Program-made: the position numbers and the translations under genes | DNA from: Gracilinema caldarium DSM 7334 | GTDB lineage: Bacteria; Spirochaetota; Spirochaetia; Treponematales; Breznakiellaceae | NCBI RefSeq assembly: GCF_000219725.1 | Contig: NC_015732.1 | Coordinates: 2,796,972 to 2,860,971 of the forward strand | DNA length: 64,000 bases | Direction: 5' to 3' | The notes under the pieces: model-generated | Told to the model about the DNA's origin: nothing | The model's input: the letters and a program-made list of their open reading frames with translations, nothing else | Database searches by the model: none | In this document: in pieces, positions 4,301-61,354 of the stretch | Layout: the number at the start of each line of letters is the position of its first letter | Numbering within the stretch: the stretch's first letter is position 1

Positions 4301-4933
4301 CTCGGTGGTGACGGTTGGGCTTACGATATCGGCTTTGGCGGCCTTGACCATGTGATTGCTTCCGGTAAGAACGTTAACATTCTGGTTATGGATACGGAAG
4401 TATATTCCAATACCGGTGGTCAAATGTCCAAGGCAACCCCGGTCGGAGCAATCGCAAAATTTGCCGCTGCCGGTAAGGAAATTACTAAGAAGGACCTGGG
4501 CGCAATCGCAATGAGCTATGGTTATGTCTATGTCGCTAAGGTATCTATGGGTGCCAATATTGCCCAGACGATTAAGGCTTTCCGGGAAGCCGAAAGCTAT
4601 GACGGTCCGTCCATCATCATCGCCTACTCCCATTGTATCAACCATGGTATCGACATGATGAAAGGTATGGATCAGCAGAAAGCGGCGGTTACCTGCGGTC
4701 TCTGGCCGATTTACCGCTATGATCCCCGGCTCAAAGCCCAGGGCAAAAACCCCTTCCAGCTGGATTCTAAGGATCCGACCACACCGGTCGAAGACTTCAT
4801 GTACAAGGAAGTACGGTTCAAGGCTCTTAAGGCTGCGGATCCGGCCCGTGCAGAAGCCCTGCTTGCCAAGGCAAAGGCTCAGATTGAAAGGACTTGGAAA
4901 GAGTACAAATATCTGGCTGAACGGCCTTTCTAA
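1376..4933 (+). CDS. nifJ: Pyruvate:ferredoxin (flavodoxin) oxidoreductase
   Basis: 1185 aa, the normal length for the single-chain homodimeric enzyme that converts pyruvate and CoA to acetyl-CoA and CO2 with electrons passed to ferredoxin. The N-terminal pyruvate-binding domain carries YPITPSSPMGE near residue 30. Two 4Fe-4S cluster motifs follow at about residues 695-765 (CIQCGNCTMVCPH and CTGCGACVNICP). The C-terminal thiamine diphosphate domain shows CAGCGETPYV near 825 and GGDGWAYDIGFGG near 980, with the conserved NTGGQ. It has its own promoter and ribosome binding site and is followed by a terminator, so it is probably monocistronic. This is the central catabolic enzyme of an anaerobic fermenter. 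Confidence 0.98.
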   Translation: MSDKKIVMIDGNTAAAHVAHALSEVIAIYPITPSSPMGELSDEYSAQGRKNLWGTVPQVVEMQSEAGAAGAVHGALTTGALSTTFTASQGLLLMIPNMYKIAGELTSTVFHIAARALAAQGLSIFGDHSDVMACRQTGWAMLASNNVQEVMDLALIAHAATLESRVPFLHFFDGFRTSHEVQKIEELSYDLMRQLISDELVAAHRARGLTPEKPAIRGTAQNPDVYFTGRETVNKYYEAVPAIVQKYMDQFAKLTGRQYKIYQYYGAPDAERVIIIMGSGAEPVEETVDYLNKKGQKVGVLKVHLYRPFDASLFVAALPATVKAIAVMDRTKEPGSLGEPLYEDVRTAVGEAMSGGKSQFKDYPKIVGGRYGLGSAEFTPAMVKAIFDNLSQATPKNHFTVGIYDDVAFTSLEWDENFDLEEEGVHEALFYGLGSDGTVGANKNSIKIIGDATDNYAQGYFVYDSKKAGTVTVSHLRFGKKPIRKPYLVTKANFIACHKFSFIEKVDMLAKAKKGGTFLLASPYPADQVWNHLPVEVQKQIIDKELKFYVIDAVSLAEKAGMGGRINVIMQTAFFKISGVLPEAEAVELIKKSIKKTYGKKGEEVVKKNIDTIDMALAGIQQVNYPKTVSGNVKIIPPVPANAPTFVKEVIGEIIGFRGEKIPVSKMPVDGTFPTGTTKYEKRNIAEKIPVWDPETCIQCGNCTMVCPHAVIRMKAYTPDKLAGAPVTFKSTDAKGKEFEGMKFTLQVSPEDCTGCGACVNICPAKNKTNPELKAINLQPQLPLREAEAKNWDFFLKIPNTDSKLLNLNLAKGIGMKQPLFEFSGACAGCGETPYVKLLSQLFGDRAIIANATGCSSIYGGNLPTTPYAKRDDGRGPAWSNSLFEDAAEFGMGMRLTSDKLAEHAREVALEAKNAGIQAALLDKILANPQDTDEAIEEQRKLVDELKAALKKDSKPLAKNLLSLADHFIKRSVWILGGDGWAYDIGFGGLDHVIASGKNVNILVMDTEVYSNTGGQMSKATPVGAIAKFAAAGKEITKKDLGAIAMSYGYVYVAKVSMGANIAQTIKAFREAESYDGPSIIIAYSHCINHGIDMMKGMDQQKAAVTCGLWPIYRYDPRLKAQGKNPFQLDSKDPTTPVEDFMYKEVRFKALKAADPARAEALLAKAKAQIERTWKEYKYLAERPF

Positions 4934-5023
4934 TTAGAGGCCTCTCGGTACAGAAACAATGTAAGAAAGCCATTTACAACATGCACAATGTGGTAAAGGT
5001 GCTCTGACCAAATTAACCTTCAC

Positions 5024-46582: not shown

Positions 46583-46732
46583 TAGCAGGGGTTTAACAAG
46601 GACAATGCTGAAGGTTTTGCTCCTGCAACCTGCAGGGGGAAGCCCTGCTTCCTGAAATAATGCATCCTGCTTGGCACCGGCGGAATAATACAGTAAAGTG
46701 CTGACAAGATTGTACTTAAGGGAATGTTTTTC

Positions 46733-47743
46733 ATGAAAAGAATCTGGCGAACCTTAACAATTTTTCCAGTGCTGCTTTTGCATCTCTTGTGTCCAGCCTT
46801 GGGCACCGCAGAAGAAGCCAGTCTTTATTGGAGTATAGAAAACAGTTTGGGGCTTACCTATGGCCATGCCAGGGAACTGGTCTACCAGGACTCGGGTTTA
46901 CCGGACTTACTGAGCGAACTGGTCTGGCCCCTGGAAGGTCTCCTTTATTATGGGACAAGCCTTACTTTTTCATATGGGAAAAGCCCTATGGCTGGTTTTT
47001 ACAGCAGACTGGACGTCCGGTTCGGCTTTACGATGCAGAGCGGCACCATCACCGACAAGGACTGGCTCGGATACAATACTGCTACCAATTCTTATTTTTT
47101 AACTCATTTCTCCGCCCACGATGCCATCAGCGAACATTCCCAATGGGTCGATGCGACGATAGGGTACGGTTTCATGGTCTCTGACCGTTTTATTATCAGG
47201 ACCGGTCTTACAGCTTCGTTTATGAACCTGCACTGGACCGCCCGGGATGGGTATATTCAGTACGGTTCCAACATCGGACAAAACAACTCAAGTTATGTTC
47301 CATGGTCCAGTTCCTTCCCAAAAGATCCAGTGTATGGTACGGGCATCGCTTACTGGCAGAACTGGGTCTCCATAGCCCCTACCCTTGAGGTGTTATGGCT
47401 GGTAGACAATCGACTCACCCTGACAGCTGCTGCTTCGGTGTATGTGCTGAACAGTTGTAATGATCAAGATGATCATTACCTACGCGAGTTGCCACTTCAA
47501 TTCACCGAACATGTTAATGGTGGCTTTGGAATAGAACCCAAACTTACGGTTAGTTACCGGCTGGTCTCCAACATCTCAGTTGGTATAGAAGGTGCCTGGA
47601 GGTATATCACCAGACTTCGGGGCAACACAAGCATTATGGAAATAGGAAGCGGAACGACCGGCGGTCCTTATACAGACCTGGCCGGTACAGACTATTCGGT
47701 GGGTAGCTGTGCGGTGTTTGTACGGTTTACTCCGCAGCGATAA
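46733..47743 (+). CDS. Omptin-family outer membrane aspartyl protease
   Basis: 336 aa with a signal peptide ending near ALGTAEEA, then alternating beta-strand sequence of a 10-strand barrel. Omptin landmarks align throughout: SLGLTYGHARELVY, TDKDW with Asp108/Asp110 (OmpT Asp83/Asp85), TARDGYI, QDDHY with Asp246/His248 (OmpT Asp210/His212), and EGAWRYITRLRGNTS. All four catalytic residues are kept. Omptins cleave between basic residues at the cell surface and in enterobacteria need LPS; how that applies here is unknown. Start: ATG at 46733, nine bases after AAGGGA. Its 3' end overlaps the convergent GGDEF gene by 17 bases. Confidence 0.85.
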   Translation: MKRIWRTLTIFPVLLLHLLCPALGTAEEASLYWSIENSLGLTYGHARELVYQDSGLPDLLSELVWPLEGLLYYGTSLTFSYGKSPMAGFYSRLDVRFGFTMQSGTITDKDWLGYNTATNSYFLTHFSAHDAISEHSQWVDATIGYGFMVSDRFIIRTGLTASFMNLHWTARDGYIQYGSNIGQNNSSYVPWSSSFPKDPVYGTGIAYWQNWVSIAPTLEVLWLVDNRLTLTAAASVYVLNSCNDQDDHYLRELPLQFTEHVNGGFGIEPKLTVSYRLVSNISVGIEGAWRYITRLRGNTSIMEIGSGTTGGPYTDLAGTDYSVGSCAVFVRFTPQR

Positions 47744-48740
47744 CCCGGTTGCGGCCCTGGTCTTTTGCTTTACGGAGGGCCGCATCGGCGGCGGCAAGAA
47801 GTTCCGGCCCGGTAGTACCGTGCTGAGGTGACACGGCTACCCCAAGACAGGTCTTAATAGAAAGCTCAATTTCTTGTAAACGCCCTTGAGAATCTGTCCA
47901 TGAAAGGGGTATAGGGAGCGCAGAAACCGCAAGTCTCAATCGTTCGCTGATACTCATGGCTTCTTCCAATGATGTATCAGGAAGCACAAAGGCAAATTCA
48001 TCCCCTGCCAGCCGGGCAGCAATGTCCGCATCCCGCAGTACCTGTCGGAAAACACCCGCTACTGCCTTAATCACCTTATCACCAGCAGCTTCACCATAGG
48101 CATTATTAATCTCATGAATCCTGTCCAGATCCATCATCATTACAGAAATATTCCGCTTCACTTTATTGGGGCCTTCGAGCCTGCTGTTCAGGGATTCCTC
48201 GAGAAAACGTCGATTATAAAGGCCTGTTAGGCTGTCTGTAATTGCCCTGAGACGGGCTGTTTCACCCCAACGAAGAAGATCATTCAAGAAGCGAGAAGAT
48301 TCATCAAGCCAGCTGGTCATTACCTGACTGATAGCACCTAACAGCTTAAGGGCAATCATGGGATGTTCAAAAATGAGCCGGTAGAAATCGAGCCCCTGGA
48401 GTACGAAAACATCGGTTTCTTCTGTGGCGGTACAGGTCGCAGACCGGGGGGCATCTTCAATAATTGCCATTTCACCGAAAAAACGGCCTGGTTCAAAATC
48501 ATAGATTTTTCGCTGTTTCCCATTACCCAGATTCACCGTGGCGACCACATGACCGGTCAGAATAATAAACATCTCTTGTCCCGGATCTCCTTCAGAAAAT
48601 ATTATTTCACCCTTATGATAATGATGACGCTCCAAAAAGGCTGTTACCGCATTAAATTCAAGTTCACTCATAGCTGCAAAAAGAGGCGAATTGATTAAGG
48701 CCTCGTTATCAAGTGGAGATTTACTCATCGATTTACTCAT
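47727..48740 (-). CDS. Cyclic nucleotide-binding domain / GGDEF protein (likely active diguanylate cyclase)
   Basis: 337 aa. The cNMP-binding domain (about 10-135) has EIIFSEGDPGQEMFIILTGH, FFGEMAIIEDAPRSATC. The GGDEF domain (about 165-335) starts TDSLTGLYNRRFLEE and has RLAGDEFAFVLP at the active site; AGDEF is a variant seen in active cyclases. It may make cyclic di-GMP in response to a nucleotide or other ligand. The ATG at 48740 overlaps the end of its upstream paralogue by eight bases; a second ATG at 48728 is also possible. No membrane segment. Confidence 0.88.
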   Translation of the reverse strand: MSKSMSKSPLDNEALINSPLFAAMSELEFNAVTAFLERHHYHKGEIIFSEGDPGQEMFIILTGHVVATVNLGNGKQRKIYDFEPGRFFGEMAIIEDAPRSATCTATEETDVFVLQGLDFYRLIFEHPMIALKLLGAISQVMTSWLDESSRFLNDLLRWGETARLRAITDSLTGLYNRRFLEESLNSRLEGPNKVKRNISVMMMDLDRIHEINNAYGEAAGDKVIKAVAGVFRQVLRDADIAARLAGDEFAFVLPDTSLEEAMSISERLRLAVSALPIPLSWTDSQGRLQEIELSIKTCLGVAVSPQHGTTGPELLAAADAALRKAKDQGRNRVIAAE

Positions 48741-49740
48741 TATGCAAAACCTTTGCCGTAAGATGTCCGGGAAATGATATAACTCTGTTTCCTCCAGCCT
48801 GCCATTGTTCAACCATATAGACATATTGCTGTTGCACCAGGGTATCCCAATCCTCGAGCATGTCAGGCCACACCCCAAATACAACCGTGGCTGAGAAGGT
48901 AAAACCGGGAAATTTCTCTGTTGGTGAAATCGGTGTTAAAGCGGTGACAGCTTTATATAGGTTTTGAGCCACAGTTTGAGCAGACTCAAGACTACAACGG
49001 GGCAGGCAGAGTCCTACTTCATTACTTTTAAAACGTAAAGCCCAACCACGTCCAAATTGCCGGACCAGGGACTTTAAAATTCCTGCGATACTCACCATTG
49101 CTTCATCCCCTGCACTATGACCAAGACCATCAACTAAGATTTTAAATCGATCCGGTTTCATGAGAATTAGTGCAGTTGGGGCCTGTAATTCTCGCCGGAT
49201 TTCTTCATCGAGAAAAGCACGATTCCAGAGCCCCGTACCGGGGTCCTCATAGGCCCGACGCCTTAATTCTTGAACCCAAGAAGTGTTTTCTGAAATGAGT
49301 TTTTGGGTAGATCTGAGGCGGCTAGAAATCATAGAAAGAGAACGAAGCAAAATACGGGAAACCGTATCAGGTTTTTCACGCTTAATATCTTCAAAATTAA
49401 GTCCTAAGGCAGGAAAACAAATTAATTCTGTATCTTCCAAGGCGACTGCAACGGCATCATAGATCGTTTGCCGGGCAAAATCGAACTCGCCCAGGAGATC
49501 CTGGCCAGTAAAAATGGCAAGCTCTTCAACTTGTCCATCAGTTTTTATACGAAAAACTCTAATCGATCCAGATACAATATAATAAAAACGATCTGCTGGA
49601 TCACCTATTGTAAAAAGACGAGCTCCCTTTCGCAACTGAAAACGACTTACTCTGGATACTATATAGTCCTCATCATCGGTTAATAATCCTGAGAAAAGTG
49701 ATGATTTTTTTAAAATATCTTGATTATTACAATCACCCAA
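48733..49740 (-). CDS. Cyclic nucleotide-binding domain / degenerate GGDEF protein
   Basis: 335 aa, the tandem paralogue of the next gene. cNMP-binding domain (about 8-130: GARLFTIGDPADRFYYIVSG, LLGEFDFARQTIYDAVAVA) and GGDEF fold (about 170-330: DPGTGLWNRAFLDEE). The active-site motif GGDEF is replaced by KSNEV in RFKSNEVGLCLP, so no cyclase activity is expected; it may bind ligand or form a heterodimer with the downstream protein. The start is TTG at 49740 after a GGGGGAAG ribosome binding site; no ATG fits. Confidence 0.85.
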   Translation of the reverse strand: MGDCNNQDILKKSSLFSGLLTDDEDYIVSRVSRFQLRKGARLFTIGDPADRFYYIVSGSIRVFRIKTDGQVEELAIFTGQDLLGEFDFARQTIYDAVAVALEDTELICFPALGLNFEDIKREKPDTVSRILLRSLSMISSRLRSTQKLISENTSWVQELRRRAYEDPGTGLWNRAFLDEEIRRELQAPTALILMKPDRFKILVDGLGHSAGDEAMVSIAGILKSLVRQFGRGWALRFKSNEVGLCLPRCSLESAQTVAQNLYKAVTALTPISPTEKFPGFTFSATVVFGVWPDMLEDWDTLVQQQYVYMVEQWQAGGNRVISFPGHLTAKVLHNE

Positions 49741-49873: not shown

Positions 49874-50980
49874 ATGAAGGGACACCTTTTTTTTATTATT
49901 TACTTATGTTTCATATGTCTTCCTACATTATCATCACAATCTCATACTAATAAAACCGCAGAAATTATCGATCTTAACCTTTTTCCTGTTTTTATACACA
50001 ACGATTTTAAAAGTGAGTATATAACCATGTATGATTCACCAATAGCTCATGACTGGTTATGTATTTCACCTTCGTTAGATGGCAATCGATCTGTTCGAAT
50101 TATTGATATACCGGAATATAGCAAACATCATTTTTTAAGTATTATTACTCAAAAACCTGAGGAATTTACGTACATTATTCCATTTATCGTATCCAGCAAT
50201 CAATTAGCAGATTTTTCTACATCAATTCCCTCCATGTTAGGACTTCATCTTGCATCCATAGGTGATAACTGGGAGATTTATCTAAATGGAACACTTCTTC
50301 GGCGGGAAATACATTTAGATACATCAGGTTTTATTACAACTCATTGTAACTACCGAGATTTACTGATTTCTTTTCCACCTTCACTATTGAGAACAGGGTC
50401 AAATTATTTGCTGTTTCACATTATTGGCGATCCTGCCAATCCAATGGTTGGCTTAAATTCATCCAGCCCTTATAGGATTGCTAATCTAGACCTCTTAAGA
50501 TTAACAACAAAAACAACCTTTGAAACAACCTTAAGCATTATTTATATCTTCATGGGCTTATATATTTTCTTAATTAATCTTTCTAAAACATTTACTTTTA
50601 TGCGTACCTTTGGACTTTTTTCACTTATTCTGGGTATCTATTTTCTTTGTCGATCATCTATTTTATATCAATGGATTTCAAATTCAGAGTTATTATTTAA
50701 AATTGAAATCAGTAGTTTATTTCTTATCTTGCCTACAACGATATTTTTTCTTTCTGGCTTTCTTCCTCCTGAAAAGGTTCGCCAAAGAATTAACATTGGA
50801 TTATATATCCTCTACGGTTTGTTTACTTTATTAGGACTTATTTTCCCACCAGCCTTTGGACATGATCTCGTAAATTTATGGGGAATAATCAGCATTTTTA
50901 CATCCTTGTATATATTAGGATATATATTGCTCTGGCATTTTTTTATTACCCTTCAAAAAGAACTAAATAGGGCTTCCTGA
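49874..50980 (+). pseudogene. 5' half of a membrane sensor gene split by an insertion sequence
   Basis: 368 aa up to a stop supplied by the insertion sequence; only the last three residues are encoded by the element. Signal peptide, an extracellular beta-domain (about 25-215, with LHLASIGDNWEIYLNGTL), then seven membrane helices like 7TMR-DISM proteins. It aligns along its length with the intact gene at 53.7 kb. Joined to the 3' half it would be a 740-aa sensor. The gene is very AT-rich. The truncated protein lacks every cytoplasmic domain. Confidence 0.88.
50964..50969. repeat. Left target-site duplication (TAAATA)
   Basis: TAAATA directly precedes the left inverted repeat and is repeated exactly at 52619-52624 after the right end. 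Confidence 0.85.
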
Positions 50981-51032
50981 AAAACAAACAACTCTTTACA
51001 AAAGAAGCAAATACAGAGATAATCTCAATAAG

Positions 51033-51076
51033 AAGTGCACGGAAGAAAGGGGTAAGGCCTTAAAAAGCGTGCACTT
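51033..51076 (+). promoter_or_regulatory. Stem-loop upstream of the transposase start
   Basis: AAGTGCACG (51033-51041) pairs perfectly with CGTGCACTT (51068-51076); the loop contains the palindrome TAAGGCCTTA (51053-51062). It ends five bases before the GGGG ribosome binding site, so it could limit transposase translation from read-through transcripts. Confidence 0.5.
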
Positions 51077-51091
51077 TACTATGGGGTAACG

Positions 51092-52555
51092 ATGTATAAG
51101 GAAAAGGAACAGGTACCTGAGTTTGAAGACTTTTATGTACCCTTCGGAGGACATTTACGAGAAGATAATCGATGGGTACGATTAGCCGCAATTATTCCAT
51201 GGGAAGAGATAGAAGCTGAATATAAAAAATGTTTTTCAAAACGAATTGGAAGAACAGCCAAGACCGTACGGCTCGCCTTGGGATCATTATTGATAAAAGA
51301 GAAATTACAATTAACAGATGAAGAAACGGTAGAAACAATACGAGAGAACCATTACCTGCAATATTTTTTAGGATATGAATCTTACAAAGATGAAAAACCC
51401 TTTGATCCAAGCATGATGGTTCATTTTCGAAAACGGCTTGGACCTGATGCAATAGCACAGATAAATGAGTTGATAGCGAAACGGTATCAAGAACAGGTAG
51501 AAGCAGAATCTGAAAAAAAACAGAACAAAGAAAACCAAAAGGATGACCATGATCATGGAAATCGAGGGCAACTCATTATAGATGCCACGTGCGTCCCCCA
51601 GGATATCCGGCATCCCCATGATGTCACTTTATTGGATGAAGCGCGAAGGAAAACAGAAAAGATAATTGATACGTTATATGAAGCGAGTGAGCTCACCATA
51701 AAACCACGAACCTATAGAAAACAGGCCCGTATCAAATATCTCAATTTTATACGAGGGCGACGAAGAACAAAAAAAGAAATACGCAGAGCGATTCGGACCC
51801 AACTCCAATACATACGACGTAATTTACGGACTATCAATGAATTACAAAACAAGGTTCCCAGTACAACGTTGAGTGCAAAACAGCGACGTGATCTTATCGT
51901 GATACATGAGGTTTACCGGCAACAGGTACAGATGTATAAGGGAAAGACCCATTCGATATCGGGAAAAATCGTCAGTATCAGTCAACCCCATGTACGACCA
52001 ATAGCCCGAGGTAAAGCAAAAGCGGCCTTTGAATTCGGAGCAAAACTATCAGCATCGATGACCGAACACGGGATGATTTTTATAGATCGATTACAATGGG
52101 AACCCTATAACGAACAAGAAGATTTGCCAACACAAATAGAAAAATATAAGAGGCGATGTGGTCGATATCCGGAATCGGTGCATGCCGATAAAATATATCG
52201 GACACGAGCAAACCGAGCCTATTGTGAAGCTCGAGGAATACGATTGTCTGGACCACCCTTAGGCAGACCGATTAAAGAAACATTAGAGAATAAAAAGATA
52301 GTACGACAGCTACGAAAGATTCAAAGACTTGACGAAGCCATTCGACAAGCGATTGAAGGTGGCTTTGGATATATGAAACGAAAGTTTGGTCTTGGTACAA
52401 TCTATGAAAAATTACGCGAAACTAGTGAAACAGCAATCATGGTATGTGTATTGCTGACCAACTGTGAAAAGATCCTGAGGGATCTTTTTATGCGCTTTTT
52501 ATTTTTACTTGGTTTTAAACCTCATAAATCATATTTGAAAGTTTTAGTATACTAA
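51092..52555 (+). CDS. DDE transposase of the insertion sequence
   Basis: 487 aa, full length. N-terminal DUF772-like helical domain (YFLGYESYKDEKPFDPSMMV). The catalytic acids are read as Asp in LIIDATCVPQDIR, Asp in SVHADKIYRTRANRAY, and Glu in EGGFGYMKRKFGL. A highly basic insert lies between the first two. It is uninterrupted, so the element may still be mobile. TGGGG precedes the ATG by five bases. Confidence 0.9.
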   Translation: MYKEKEQVPEFEDFYVPFGGHLREDNRWVRLAAIIPWEEIEAEYKKCFSKRIGRTAKTVRLALGSLLIKEKLQLTDEETVETIRENHYLQYFLGYESYKDEKPFDPSMMVHFRKRLGPDAIAQINELIAKRYQEQVEAESEKKQNKENQKDDHDHGNRGQLIIDATCVPQDIRHPHDVTLLDEARRKTEKIIDTLYEASELTIKPRTYRKQARIKYLNFIRGRRRTKKEIRRAIRTQLQYIRRNLRTINELQNKVPSTTLSAKQRRDLIVIHEVYRQQVQMYKGKTHSISGKIVSISQPHVRPIARGKAKAAFEFGAKLSASMTEHGMIFIDRLQWEPYNEQEDLPTQIEKYKRRCGRYPESVHADKIYRTRANRAYCEARGIRLSGPPLGRPIKETLENKKIVRQLRKIQRLDEAIRQAIEGGFGYMKRKFGLGTIYEKLRETSETAIMVCVLLTNCEKILRDLFMRFLFLLGFKPHKSYLKVLVY

Positions 52556-52618
52556 ATTAAACCCATTTTAACGTAAAAAAGTTTTGAAATATCATTTTTA
52601 GACATTTTCAGTAGGCCC

Positions 52619-52624: not shown

Positions 52625-53751
52625 CAAAAAAAGATAAAATAGATACTCGTACAATTATTAAAAAAGTTAAAAATGTTCTTTTATTAACACCTATTGGCAA
52701 TATTCTCATTGGGTTTAGTTTTCTCGCATGCACTGCTATGTTTGATGCTTTTGAAACGATTATTACCCATAAGAATCATGTACTTAGTCGTTATTCTTTT
52801 TTAATTTTTATTTTTGGAAGTATCATTGCTATTGCTCATCATTATCGAAATCTCTTAACCCGTTTACAAACTACTAATCATCTTCTCGAAACACAAATTA
52901 GCCTCATTAATCATAGTAAGTTAATGGCAGAACGTAATGAACAGGTTTTTTACAATATATTTTATAGTAGTATCGATCCCATTTTTATCACTGACGACCA
53001 GCTACATATCATAGATTACAATCTTGGTACAGCCTATTATTTTACTTTTAATAGTAAACAGCTAAGTGATAAAAACACCCTCTTTGATATTTTACCTATG
53101 GATAATGATTCCAAGTTAAAACTAAAAACCACCATAGCAATATATAAACACCATGTATCATGCAGTTTTAAACAAACAGTTCGTATCATAGCACCATATA
53201 ATGCTTCAAAACACTTACTACAATCATACACATTACATGTAGACAAACTCAACTACAACGAATCACCGCTTTTTTCAATTAGAGTAGTACCAATAAAGAC
53301 AAAATTGGACTTTATGAGTTTAAAATGGAGCCGCGGAAGTTATACTATAGATAGTTCACCAGAACAAGCGGATTTACTTAGCCAACGATTAACAGCGGCC
53401 CTTTACTACTTTATAACAGAACAGGGTTCAGAGCTTATTCGAACAGGTATCCATGAAATGTTGCTTAATGCAATAGTACATGGAAATAAAAATGATCCAC
53501 AAAAGAAGGTTTTTGTTAAATATATATTCACTCCTCGCAAGGTACTTATTCGAATAACCGATCAGGGGAATGGCTTTGATCACATCAGTATTTTAAAAAA
53601 GGTCCAACTGCACGATAATATATATTTAAAAAACCACCAGGGAATATTTATTACACTTGGAGCCTTTGATTATGTGACTTATAATGAAATAGGAAACCAG
53701 GTAACCCTGGGTAAAAATGTATATAACAAGGAAGCAGAACATGAAACTTAA
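52625..53751 (+). pseudogene. 3' half of the split membrane sensor gene
   Basis: The frame is open from inside the right end of the element; the first ATG is at 52738 (337 aa from there). It encodes the last membrane helices (TPIGNILIGFSFLACTAMF), a PAS-like region, and a C-terminal RsbW-type ATPase with N-box EMLLNAIVHGN and DQGNGFDH. The glycine lid is weak (NHQGIFIT) compared with the intact paralogue. It may be transcribed from the element, but it has lost the sensor half. Ends 11 bases past the next gene's ATG. Confidence 0.85.
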
Positions 53752-56029
53752 ATTAGTACCCAGAATTTTTCTTTTCCAAGCACTTTTATTCTCTTCAATT
53801 TATTTATACGCATTGCCAAGTATCCCTAATACATCAGCTTTTTTTATTGATTTAAACACCCTTCCAATATATGTACATTTAGGTTTTAATCAACGGCTTA
53901 TTTCATCAGTTCCGGATACCAACGATACTGCCTGGCAGGTTTTTCCGCCTACACCAGAGGGACCTCGAATTGTTCGTTATCTGGAAATTGATGGAATACC
54001 GAAAAAAAAATTCTTGAGTATTACAACCTATAAACCTATTGAAACAACCTTTGTTATTCCTTTTATGGTCAATACAAAAACACTTACCGGGATAGTCCCT
54101 GGGTTACATCTTGCTTCCATTGGTGATAATTGGGAAATTTACCTGAATGGCACCCTTATTAAATCTGAGCTGCACTTGAATTCTACCGGCTCTATAACAT
54201 CCCATAGAAGTTATCGTGATGTATACCTACCCATCAATCCTGATCTCTTTGTAGATGGGCAAAACATTATAGCCTTCAGAATTATTGGAGAGCCCACTAA
54301 TACACCGGTTGGCTTTTTCTTTTCTCAACCCTATGTCATTACCGACTACACATCAATTGAGGCATCTAACAACGATGTCTGGAAATTTGCCCTTTGTGCA
54401 ATCTATATATTTATTGGTCTTTACCATATAGTTCTCTATTTATTCAGACTACAGGATCGATATAACCTATTTTATGGGTTCTTCTCTATAGATCTAGGAC
54501 TCTATTTCTTTGCAAGAATTCATACGGTTTATCAGTTTATCCCTGATTCAGTATTATTAATGAAACTTGAGTTCATTACACTCTACATGGTCATGCCATC
54601 GGTCAGTGCATTCATTGAAACCTTGAGTATCAATAAGACTCGATGGGGAACCAGAATAATGGCAATGTATTGCGGGATATTATCTTTGGGAACTATTTTT
54701 TCATCCCTTGCGTTTGCCCACGATCTTTTAAAAATTTGGCAATACAGTGCCCTCTTTATAGTGTTCTATATTTTTGGATACGCAGTTTTGTGGGACTTCT
54801 TCTCCACCGCCTTTCGACGATGGAAACGAACCGCTCAGGTCAACAATCATTCAGGTTTTGGAGGTCAAATATGGCATGATCTCATTAAAACGCCCCTTGG
54901 AAATGTGGCTATTGGAGCTTCCATTCTGTTTGCAACTGCACTCTTTGATATTTTAGATTCCATCTTTTTCCTTACCGATGCGGTGCTTTCCCGCTATGGA
55001 CTATTCATCTTTACCATCGGCAGTGCGTTAATTCTGGCCAATCGATATGGGTTCTTATTTAAACAGCTTAATTATGCCAATGTAAATTTGGAAGAACGTA
55101 TCAATGATCTCAGTGTAGCAAAAGCTACTGCCGAACGAAATGAACGAAAATATCGTAGCCTTTTTAATGGAACAAAAGATCCTATTGCATTGTTGGATAA
55201 GGATTTCCGATTTAAGGAATGCAATGGAGCGGGTATTGATTATTTCAATCTTGAAGGAGTAGATCTTTCCTATACCAGCGAGAAAACCCCCAAACTTACA
55301 GACCTGCTTTATGAAGATCAGCGGGAACATATTTCTTTAGCAGAACGGTTTGAAAGTATTCGTGAACGACTGCTTACTTCAAAACAGATTGTTGAAGTTC
55401 AAGCACAGATGCGTTCTCCCCTCGGAGAATTTAAATCCTGTTCACTGCGCATGGAAAGCATAAAAACTTCTGATGAACTTGAAATATTAGTTCGAGTGAT
55501 ACCAGATATTCAGAATGAATTAGTACATGCTTTTATTGAAGGGCGGGAACGTTTTGAAATAGAAAACACCCTCACCGCAGCAGATGAAATTAGCCGCCAT
55601 ATCTGTATCAATCTCGGGAAATACATGCCCCAGGAAGATGCTAATTTTGCAATGGTATGTGTTCGAGAAATCATTATTAATGCTATTGAACACGGAAATC
55701 TTGAAATTACTTTTGATGAAAAGTCAAAGGCACAACGAGAGCGAAGGTATTTTGAGTTTTTACAAGAACGGAAAGACGTTCCTCAATACAAAGACCGGCG
55801 GGTCCAAGTAGAATATTCTATAACACCGCAGAGGGCTCTCTTTAGGGTAACAGATGAAGGCAAAGGGTTTGATCATCGTACCTTTTTAAAAAGAGTAGCT
55901 AATCCCAGTCCAGAAATTTTGGAACATGGCCGGGGCCTCTTTATGACCCTGGCGGCTTTTGATAGGGTAGTCTATAACGATAAGGGTAATCAGGTAACTC
56001 TGGAAAAACGCTTTACAGTCAAGACGTAA
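53741..56029 (+). CDS. 7TMR-DISM-type membrane sensor with PAS-like and RsbW-type ATPase domains
   Basis: 762 aa. Signal peptide (1-20), an extracellular beta-domain (about 25-205) with LHLASIGDNWEIYLNGTL, about seven membrane helices (about 215-440), a short coiled coil, a PAS-like domain (about 470-570: LFNGTKDPIALLDKDFRF) and a C-terminal HATPase (about 610-762) with N-box REIIINAIEHGN, G1 DEGKGFDH and G2 HGRGLFMT. No His-containing dimerisation helix is present, so it resembles partner-switching serine kinases (RsbW-like), not a classical histidine kinase. ATG at 53741 after AAGGAAG; the upstream in-frame ATG at 53717 is less likely. Intact paralogue of the split gene before it. Confidence 0.85.
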   Translation: MKLKLVPRIFLFQALLFSSIYLYALPSIPNTSAFFIDLNTLPIYVHLGFNQRLISSVPDTNDTAWQVFPPTPEGPRIVRYLEIDGIPKKKFLSITTYKPIETTFVIPFMVNTKTLTGIVPGLHLASIGDNWEIYLNGTLIKSELHLNSTGSITSHRSYRDVYLPINPDLFVDGQNIIAFRIIGEPTNTPVGFFFSQPYVITDYTSIEASNNDVWKFALCAIYIFIGLYHIVLYLFRLQDRYNLFYGFFSIDLGLYFFARIHTVYQFIPDSVLLMKLEFITLYMVMPSVSAFIETLSINKTRWGTRIMAMYCGILSLGTIFSSLAFAHDLLKIWQYSALFIVFYIFGYAVLWDFFSTAFRRWKRTAQVNNHSGFGGQIWHDLIKTPLGNVAIGASILFATALFDILDSIFFLTDAVLSRYGLFIFTIGSALILANRYGFLFKQLNYANVNLEERINDLSVAKATAERNERKYRSLFNGTKDPIALLDKDFRFKECNGAGIDYFNLEGVDLSYTSEKTPKLTDLLYEDQREHISLAERFESIRERLLTSKQIVEVQAQMRSPLGEFKSCSLRMESIKTSDELEILVRVIPDIQNELVHAFIEGRERFEIENTLTAADEISRHICINLGKYMPQEDANFAMVCVREIIINAIEHGNLEITFDEKSKAQRERRYFEFLQERKDVPQYKDRRVQVEYSITPQRALFRVTDEGKGFDHRTFLKRVANPSPEILEHGRGLFMTLAAFDRVVYNDKGNQVTLEKRFTVKT

Positions 56030-60113: not shown

Positions 60114-61354
60114 TCAGAAAAACAGATCGGGTATTTCAAACCGGTCCACATCGACCAGACCACGGTCGGTTAATTTGATATGAAGAATAACGGACAGGGC
60201 CATGAAGGACAGGGTCATGAGAGGTTGGGTATTGGACACCCCTTCGTTTTAAAAAAAGGCTTCGAAAGCATCGAGCTTTTGGTTCACCTCTGTTGCGCTT
60301 TGATTTGTCATGAGGCCCCCGATGGAAAGAGGAAGATCAGCGATAACCCGGTCACCTAAGGTTACCATCAGGCCTCCCCAATTTTATTCAAGTACCGGGT
60401 GGCGTAAAGATTGATGTACCATCAACCCCTACGACAATCATAAGGTCTTTCAGGAGGACCATATCAGCCTGATATCCCGGAGCCAGGGCACCAAAGGTCT
60501 GGAGTCCATAGCGATCCGCCACATTCAGCGTAGCCAATCGGATTGCATCGTTGGGATCCACGCCGGCGGCCACGAGGAGTCTGAGCATTCGATCGATGTG
60601 TCCCTCCCGGACCAGGTCGGTCGGATGCCGGTCGTCGGAACAGAGGAGGAAGCGGCGGGCATTCCTGGGGGTTACCGTTGGAACCAGGGCTTTTAGGTCC
60701 CGGGCGGCGGAACCTTCACGGATCATCACATACATGCCCTTGAAAAGCTTTTTAGCAGCCTCCTCCGCACTGGTCGATTCATGATCGAACCGGATCCCCG
60801 CGGAAATATAGGCCGACAGGTCCCGCCCCCGAACGGCCGAGGCGTGGCCATCGATAGCCTTACGGGCTTCCCGGAAAATAGCGAGTTTATCCAGCAAGGT
60901 CGCTTCACCGGCAATAAGGCCGGGTAAATTGTTCACTTCCCCAAGGCCCAGCACCCGTTCTTCCCGGGCAAATTGATGCATGTCCGAAGCGAAAAGACTG
61001 GCACCTGAAATGTCAAAATTGGTAGCTGGTACACAGGAAGGGACCGTCAGGTATACATCCAGGGGAAGACCCTCAGGGGACCACAATGCGGGCATACTCA
61101 GCGGGGCTGAGGGGGGAGGACTCGATATGGACATGGGCATCCATAAAGGAGGGGGCCAGGTATAAGCCCCGGGCGTCTATAGATTGATGAGCCGAGAGGC
61201 CATCGTTGATATCCACAATACGCTCATAGGCTACCGATACGGTCGTATCCGGCACAAGGCGGCCCTGGAACACATCAACCAGGGTACAGTGCTCGATGTT
61301 GAAATCGCAGACCTGTCGGCCCGAAGCAGCAGCAAGGATTCCTGTGTACTGCAC
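60114..61354 (-). pseudogene. ade: Decayed adenine deaminase
   Basis: Four traces of one protein. N-terminus 61354-61073 with a GTG start after GGGGAGG and FMDAHVHIESSPLSPAEYARIVVP-type metal site; then a frameshift and loss of the segment that normally holds the DPHE motif; a long middle piece (about 61087-60388) with EGLPLDV, GHIDRMLRL and SDDRHPTD; an in-frame loss before MIVVGVDG; then shifted remnants NKIGEA, GGLMVTLGDRVIADLPLSIG, and finally [11 protein letters not shown]...[13 protein letters not shown] to a TGA at 60114. At least three lesions, so no active enzyme is expected. Family identity is firm. Confidence 0.9.

Follow-up and report, generated by a model that had tools for sequence, protein, structure and literature searches.

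A 7TMR-DISM receptor of Gracilinema caldarium that ends in a SpoIIAB/RsbW-type ATPase is a probable partner-switching serine kinase

In the stretch of DNA analyzed here (the window; 64,000 nucleotides from Gracilinema caldarium DSM 7334), computational analysis identified a single open reading frame in which a 7TMR-DISM receptor is joined directly to an ATPase of the SpoIIAB/RsbW kind, as the original prediction had proposed, and in which the phospho-acceptor (DHp) helix is truly absent. Judged from its sequence and modeled structure, this protein, the second of two tandem copies (copy 2), is probably a receptor-linked partner-switching serine kinase.

The reading frame of copy 2 stops at 56029 (+) and begins either at ATG 53717, giving 770 aa, or at ATG 53741, giving 762 aa. 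ATG 53741 has the better ribosome-binding site, AAGGAAGCAG, and is equally or more likely to be the start. Residue numbers are those of the 770-aa form (ATG 53717). The receptor and its parts are as follows.

53717..56029, + strand: 7TMR-DISM, PAS and HATPase_c_2 receptor, copy 2 (ORF call, Pfam, AlphaFold)
53753..53821, + strand: signal peptide or N-terminal hydrophobic helix, residues 13–35 (hydropathy; helix in the model)
53843..54346, + strand: extracellular beta-domain, residues 43–210 (model; alignment)
54377..55054, + strand: seven transmembrane helices, PF07695, residues 221–446 (Pfam; model)
55055..55171, + strand: signaling helix prolonging the last transmembrane helix, residues 447–485 (model)
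55148..55504, + strand: PAS domain, residues 478–596 (PF13188; homologue matches; model)
55529..56017, + strand: RsbW/SpoIIAB/LvrC-type ATPase domain, residues 605–767 (PF13581; structure matches)
55667..55699, + strand: N box, E651..N655..H659 G660 N661 (invariant in alignments; aligned with the SpoIIAB N box)
55853..55873, + strand: G1 box, DEGKGFD (alignment)
55925..55939, + strand: G2 box, HGRGL (alignment)

Pfam placed 7TMR-DISM_7TM at residues 222–358, PAS_8 at 478–531 and HATPase_c_2 at 638–764 of copy 2, all above cut-off. The PF07695 match scored 39.7 bits against a curated cut-off of 29 and recurred at E 0.01 in 24 of 27 homologues, and PAS matches were found in 22 of the 27. A full-length AlphaFold model (pLDDT 83), for which 27 full-length sequences were aligned, showed the beta-domain at 43–210, seven transmembrane helices starting at 221 and ending at about 446, a long helix running to 485, the PAS domain at 490–596 and then a SpoIIAB-like ATPase with its first strand at 609. 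Pfam and the model together thus bear out the order first read from the letters: signal peptide, beta-domain, seven membrane helices, PAS and HATPase. The extracellular part of copy 2 and of its homologues had no Pfam match to DISMED1 or DISMED2; a beta-domain is predicted there by the model, and G56, F116, N144 and N183 are invariant within it in the alignment. With the full-length model as the Foldseek query, no partner for the extracellular domain appeared among the matches listed, which were taken up by hits to PAS and ATPase.

The original prediction had seen no H-box, and a phospho-acceptor helix hidden between about residues 570 and 610 was looked for by alignment, Pfam and AlphaFold; none was found, and a hidden DHp helix is ruled out. 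In the model, residues 570–610 are made up of PAS strands followed by a short linker of low confidence, 12 residues lying between the end of the PAS domain at 596 and the start of the ATPase at 609. Neither H604 nor H628 is conserved among the homologues, and the only invariant histidines of the cytoplasmic part in 28 sequences are H659 of the N box and H737 of the G2 box. HisKA was found by Pfam in none of the 27 full-length homologues. Pfam did find HisKA and HATPase_c in a receptor with a related sensor from another genome (L131), indicating that the method was able to detect HisKA.

The motifs and the fold of the ATPase confirmed that it is of the RsbW/SpoIIAB kind and not that of a histidine kinase. 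The key residues of the N box (RE..INAIEHGN), the G1 box and the G2 box (HGRG) are invariant in 28 homologues; E651, N655, A656, E658, H659, G660, N661, K669, Y678, R685, D713, G715, G717, F718 and the HGRG residues are the same in all 28 sequences, which argues for a nucleotide site that is probably in working order. In SpoIIAB, the N-box glutamate acts as a base. A model of the isolated domain (pLDDT 86.5) matched LvrC with a Z score of 19.1, SpoIIAB with 15.4, RsbW with 14.0 and UsfX with 12.4, followed by the RsbW domain of Rv1364c (11.1) and SiaB (10.7), whereas histidine-kinase catalytic domains and mitochondrial kinases reached 8.0 or less. The only solved structures matched by the sequence profile of the domain were LvrC, RsbW and SpoIIAB. 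The NCBIfam RsbW equivalog model scored 17.8 bits against a cut-off of 145; therefore, the ATPase is a relative of RsbW and not RsbW itself.

Matches extending from the extracellular domain of the receptor through to its C terminus were present in 34 of 393 Spirochaetota genomes, at 27–51% identity. The nearest named relatives, in Gracilinema caldarium and Treponema metagenome-assembled genomes, are 74–78% identical with gene order unchanged, and a one-protein scan of genome contigs returned only three close relatives. Elsewhere in the phylum, the PAS-ATPase module is attached to other inputs, namely Rec domains and other membrane sensors. The host genome holds a second member of the ATPase family (L007 979–2382; C1:3207509), with a cNMP-binding domain fused at its C terminus and no Pfam match over about 170 residues at its N terminus. 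Next to one homologue of the kinase receptor lies a 7TMR-DISM receptor fused to an MCP chemotaxis signaling domain (L086 9995–12175).

Genes of the ATPase family are linked to SpoIIE phosphatase genes, overlapping them head-to-tail in three genomes (L150, L151 and L161). In L150, where the kinase gene runs into the contig end and its input domain lies outside the sequence seen, the SpoIIE gene is followed by a STAS gene (4646–4975; 23.7 bits against a cut-off of 22.6), which has EEHREMF in place of the canonical phospho-serine motif. In two further genomes (L083 and L084), the gene for the kinase receptor is divergent from one for a 7TMR-DISM-SpoIIE protein. SpoIIE receptors with a close sensor (at least 50% identity, full length) were found in six genomes, and the kinase receptor was present in all six, a pairing with a chance P of 2.7e-7 that ignores relatedness, the six genomes amounting to three families. 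Within each of these genomes, the sensors of the two receptors are 35–42% identical. More distant sensor-SpoIIE proteins also occur in genomes without a listed kinase receptor, and the pairing is therefore not obligatory. Six Spirochaetota genomes have both receptors, and two of these additionally carry a kinase-receptor gene divergent from a phosphatase-receptor gene. It is conceivable, if rather doubtful, that a kinase receptor and a SpoIIE receptor with homologous sensors form a push-pull pair, opposing each other on the same STAS protein in response to one outside signal.

In the window, neither SpoIIE nor STAS genes were found in linkage with the kinase receptor, this linkage being seen in relatives only, and no STAS gene lay nearer than 4 kb to the receptor in the window or the fetched homologue neighborhoods (4–5 kb for the homologues). 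Three small recurrent neighbors were considered as STAS candidates and rejected: cl8 is SpoVG, cl9 resembles a membrane protein, and cl26, which matched no family, appears to be a spurious reading frame. The original prediction called for a STAS partner somewhere in the genome, and a genome search found eight STAS domains, together with 12 SpoIIE and 7 sigma-70-type genes; several of the STAS domains carry a phosphosite of the D-S/T-S/T-G type. Two SpoIIE-STAS sets (C1:1235168 and near 527000) each include a small HATPase. Two others, near 3092871 and near 761225, have no HATPase_c_2 gene alongside, the latter being followed by a PAS histidine kinase gene. A single STAS gene, at 262429, stands alone. 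From gene order, these last two sets and the solitary STAS protein are candidate partners of the receptor kinase. The sole 7TMR-DISM-SpoIIE protein of the host has a sensor distant from that of the kinase receptor.

If copy 2 is a partner-switching kinase, a ligand at the outer face would bind the beta-domain and/or the 7TM region and change the 7TM bundle, and this change would pass along the continuous helix 424–485, through the PAS domain, into the ATPase. The PAS domain may supply a second, internal signal. We infer that the ATPase has kinase activity, its substrate most likely being a serine of a STAS antagonist encoded elsewhere in the genome, and it may also bind the target of the STAS partner. 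SpoIIE phosphatases, some of them on receptors with homologous sensors, would take the phosphate off. The direction of control and the output of the receptor are likewise predicted features of this scheme.

The output could also be reached by binding alone. In this reading, which we regard as unlikely, copy 2 would be a membrane-held anti-sigma factor, with the ATPase binding a sigma factor directly and the receptor controlling its release, kinase activity having little or no role. The nearest solved structure, LvrC, is a domain under Rec control that has been put forward as an anti-sigma factor, and the seven sigma-70-type genes would offer targets; however, the N-box glutamate and the Mg/ATP motif residues are invariant, and the SpoIIE linkage implies a phosphorylated partner. 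The two readings are not exclusive, because RsbW and SpoIIAB do both jobs.

A different output is raised by a neighboring gene pair.

47727..49740, − strand: divergent pair of cNMP-binding/GGDEF proteins (Pfam; homologue neighborhoods)

The pair adjoins the kinase receptor locus in the window, in the close relatives L147–L149 and in L077, and lies within two genes of the receptor in L079 and L080, which belong to another class. Since it stands beside the locus in some lineages, a c-di-GMP output rivals a sigma-factor output: copy 2 would be a partner-switching kinase acting through the cNMP-GGDEF pair, as in SiaABCD or HsbRAD of Pseudomonas, and the structural match to SiaB is in keeping with this. 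We nevertheless consider it improbable, because most of the 12 genomes tested have the pair at another place and in the window it is on the opposite strand, and a search of the genome, run without a positive control, did not find SiaC. It is very improbable that the receptor is an unusual histidine kinase with its acceptor histidine elsewhere (H628, for example, or in trans), a reading suggested by the Pfam name of the domain, histidine kinase-like, and by the HisKA-HATPase protein of L131, but opposed by the missing DHp helix, by the confinement of conserved cytoplasmic histidines to the N and G2 boxes and by a fold far nearer to SpoIIAB than to histidine kinases.

Several features of the surroundings were recorded. 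The tandem cNMP-GGDEF genes are kept together throughout the phylum and come near the kinase receptor in two separate lineages. An omptin-family outer-membrane protease homologue (46724–47743; PF01278, 1.8e-27) is kept beside the locus in L147–L149. At 60388–61354, an apparent adenine-deaminase-type gene, noted by eye, occupies two overlapping frames and is possibly frameshifted.

The original prediction had also taken the tandem arrangement as a sign of two related ligands. A second copy does exist, but here it is split by an IS5-family element.

49874..50980, + strand: N-terminal part of copy 1 (extracellular domain and part of the 7TM region), interrupted (ORF, Pfam, alignment)
50970..52618, + strand: IS5-family element inside copy 1 (transposase 51092–52555; inverted ends GGGC...; target duplication TAAATA)
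52738..53751, + strand: C-terminal part of copy 1 (PAS and ATPase, G2 box HQGI), its end overlapping the start of copy 2 (Pfam)

The element is 1649 bp long and, with about 18 near-identical copies, represents a recent burst in the genome; its target duplications are of 6 bp and mostly of the TAnnTA type. In L147–L149 both copies are intact, with overlapping frames in L147 and L149 and almost adjoining ones in L148. Even where copy 1 is intact, its G2 box is degenerate (HQGI or HQGL, as against HGRG), and among the relatives it is conserved at 31–55%, compared with 74–78% for copy 2. Disrupted, faster-evolving and degenerate in its G2 box, copy 1 seems rather to be a partner that is regulatory or in decay, and the case for two ligands is weak. 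From its sequence, copy 1 may serve copy 2 as a regulatory partner, or it may be losing its function.

With known 7TMR-DISM receptors, a group that was reportedly named in a 2003 paper, copy 2 shares a predicted extracellular beta-domain, the PF07695 7TM region and the signaling helix. The known outputs of such receptors are histidine kinases, cyclases/GGDEF, PP2C/SpoIIE and HD-GYP domains, some of which were also seen in this analysis, whereas the output here is an RsbW-type ATPase. Within the reach of our literature search, which mostly did not extend to subscription papers, nothing linked 7TMR-DISM with RsbW or SpoIIE. The junction is a new combination of known parts, conserved family-wide.

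With SpoIIAB and RsbW, the anti-sigma serine kinases of Bacillus, the ATPase shares the fold and the N, G1 and G2 boxes, and its family is linked to SpoIIE genes, with STAS in one operon. By contrast, SpoIIAB and RsbW are small and soluble and lack a receptor; the ATPase of copy 2 is fused to one, and its gene has no adjoining STAS gene in the window. SiaABCD and HsbRAD resemble the receptor in combining partner switching with sensory input, but there it is the phosphatase, SiaA, that acts as membrane sensor, next to a soluble kinase, whereas here the sensor is on the kinase. The best-known partner-switching systems use a small soluble kinase and receive the environmental signal mainly at the phosphatase or a stressosome. 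Receptors carrying the kinase across the phylum suggest that this opposite arm may also be gated from outside, such that an outside signal could drive a partner switch through one protein.

The closest counterpart is LvrC of Leptospira interrogans (PDB 9qih, where it is named SenB; LIC11110), a Bergerat protein gated by Rec for which an anti-sigma role has been proposed (PMC13269768). It is the best match of the receptor ATPase in both sequence (E 4.6e-19) and fold, has the same type of Bergerat domain with an insert after the N box, and likewise places its output domain under an N-terminal sensor module. LvrC is a soluble protein whose gate, a Rec domain, receives its phosphate from a histidine kinase, whereas the gate of copy 2 is a 7TM region and a PAS domain in one chain. 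In Leptospira, partner switching has been tied to motility and virulence (PMC13066512, PMC5100919). The receptor family offers a testable entry to spirochaete signaling, in which little is known of the kinases and inputs, and makes LvrC one member of a wider group of sensor-gated ATPases that are Rec-linked, 7TM-linked or joined to other membrane sensors.
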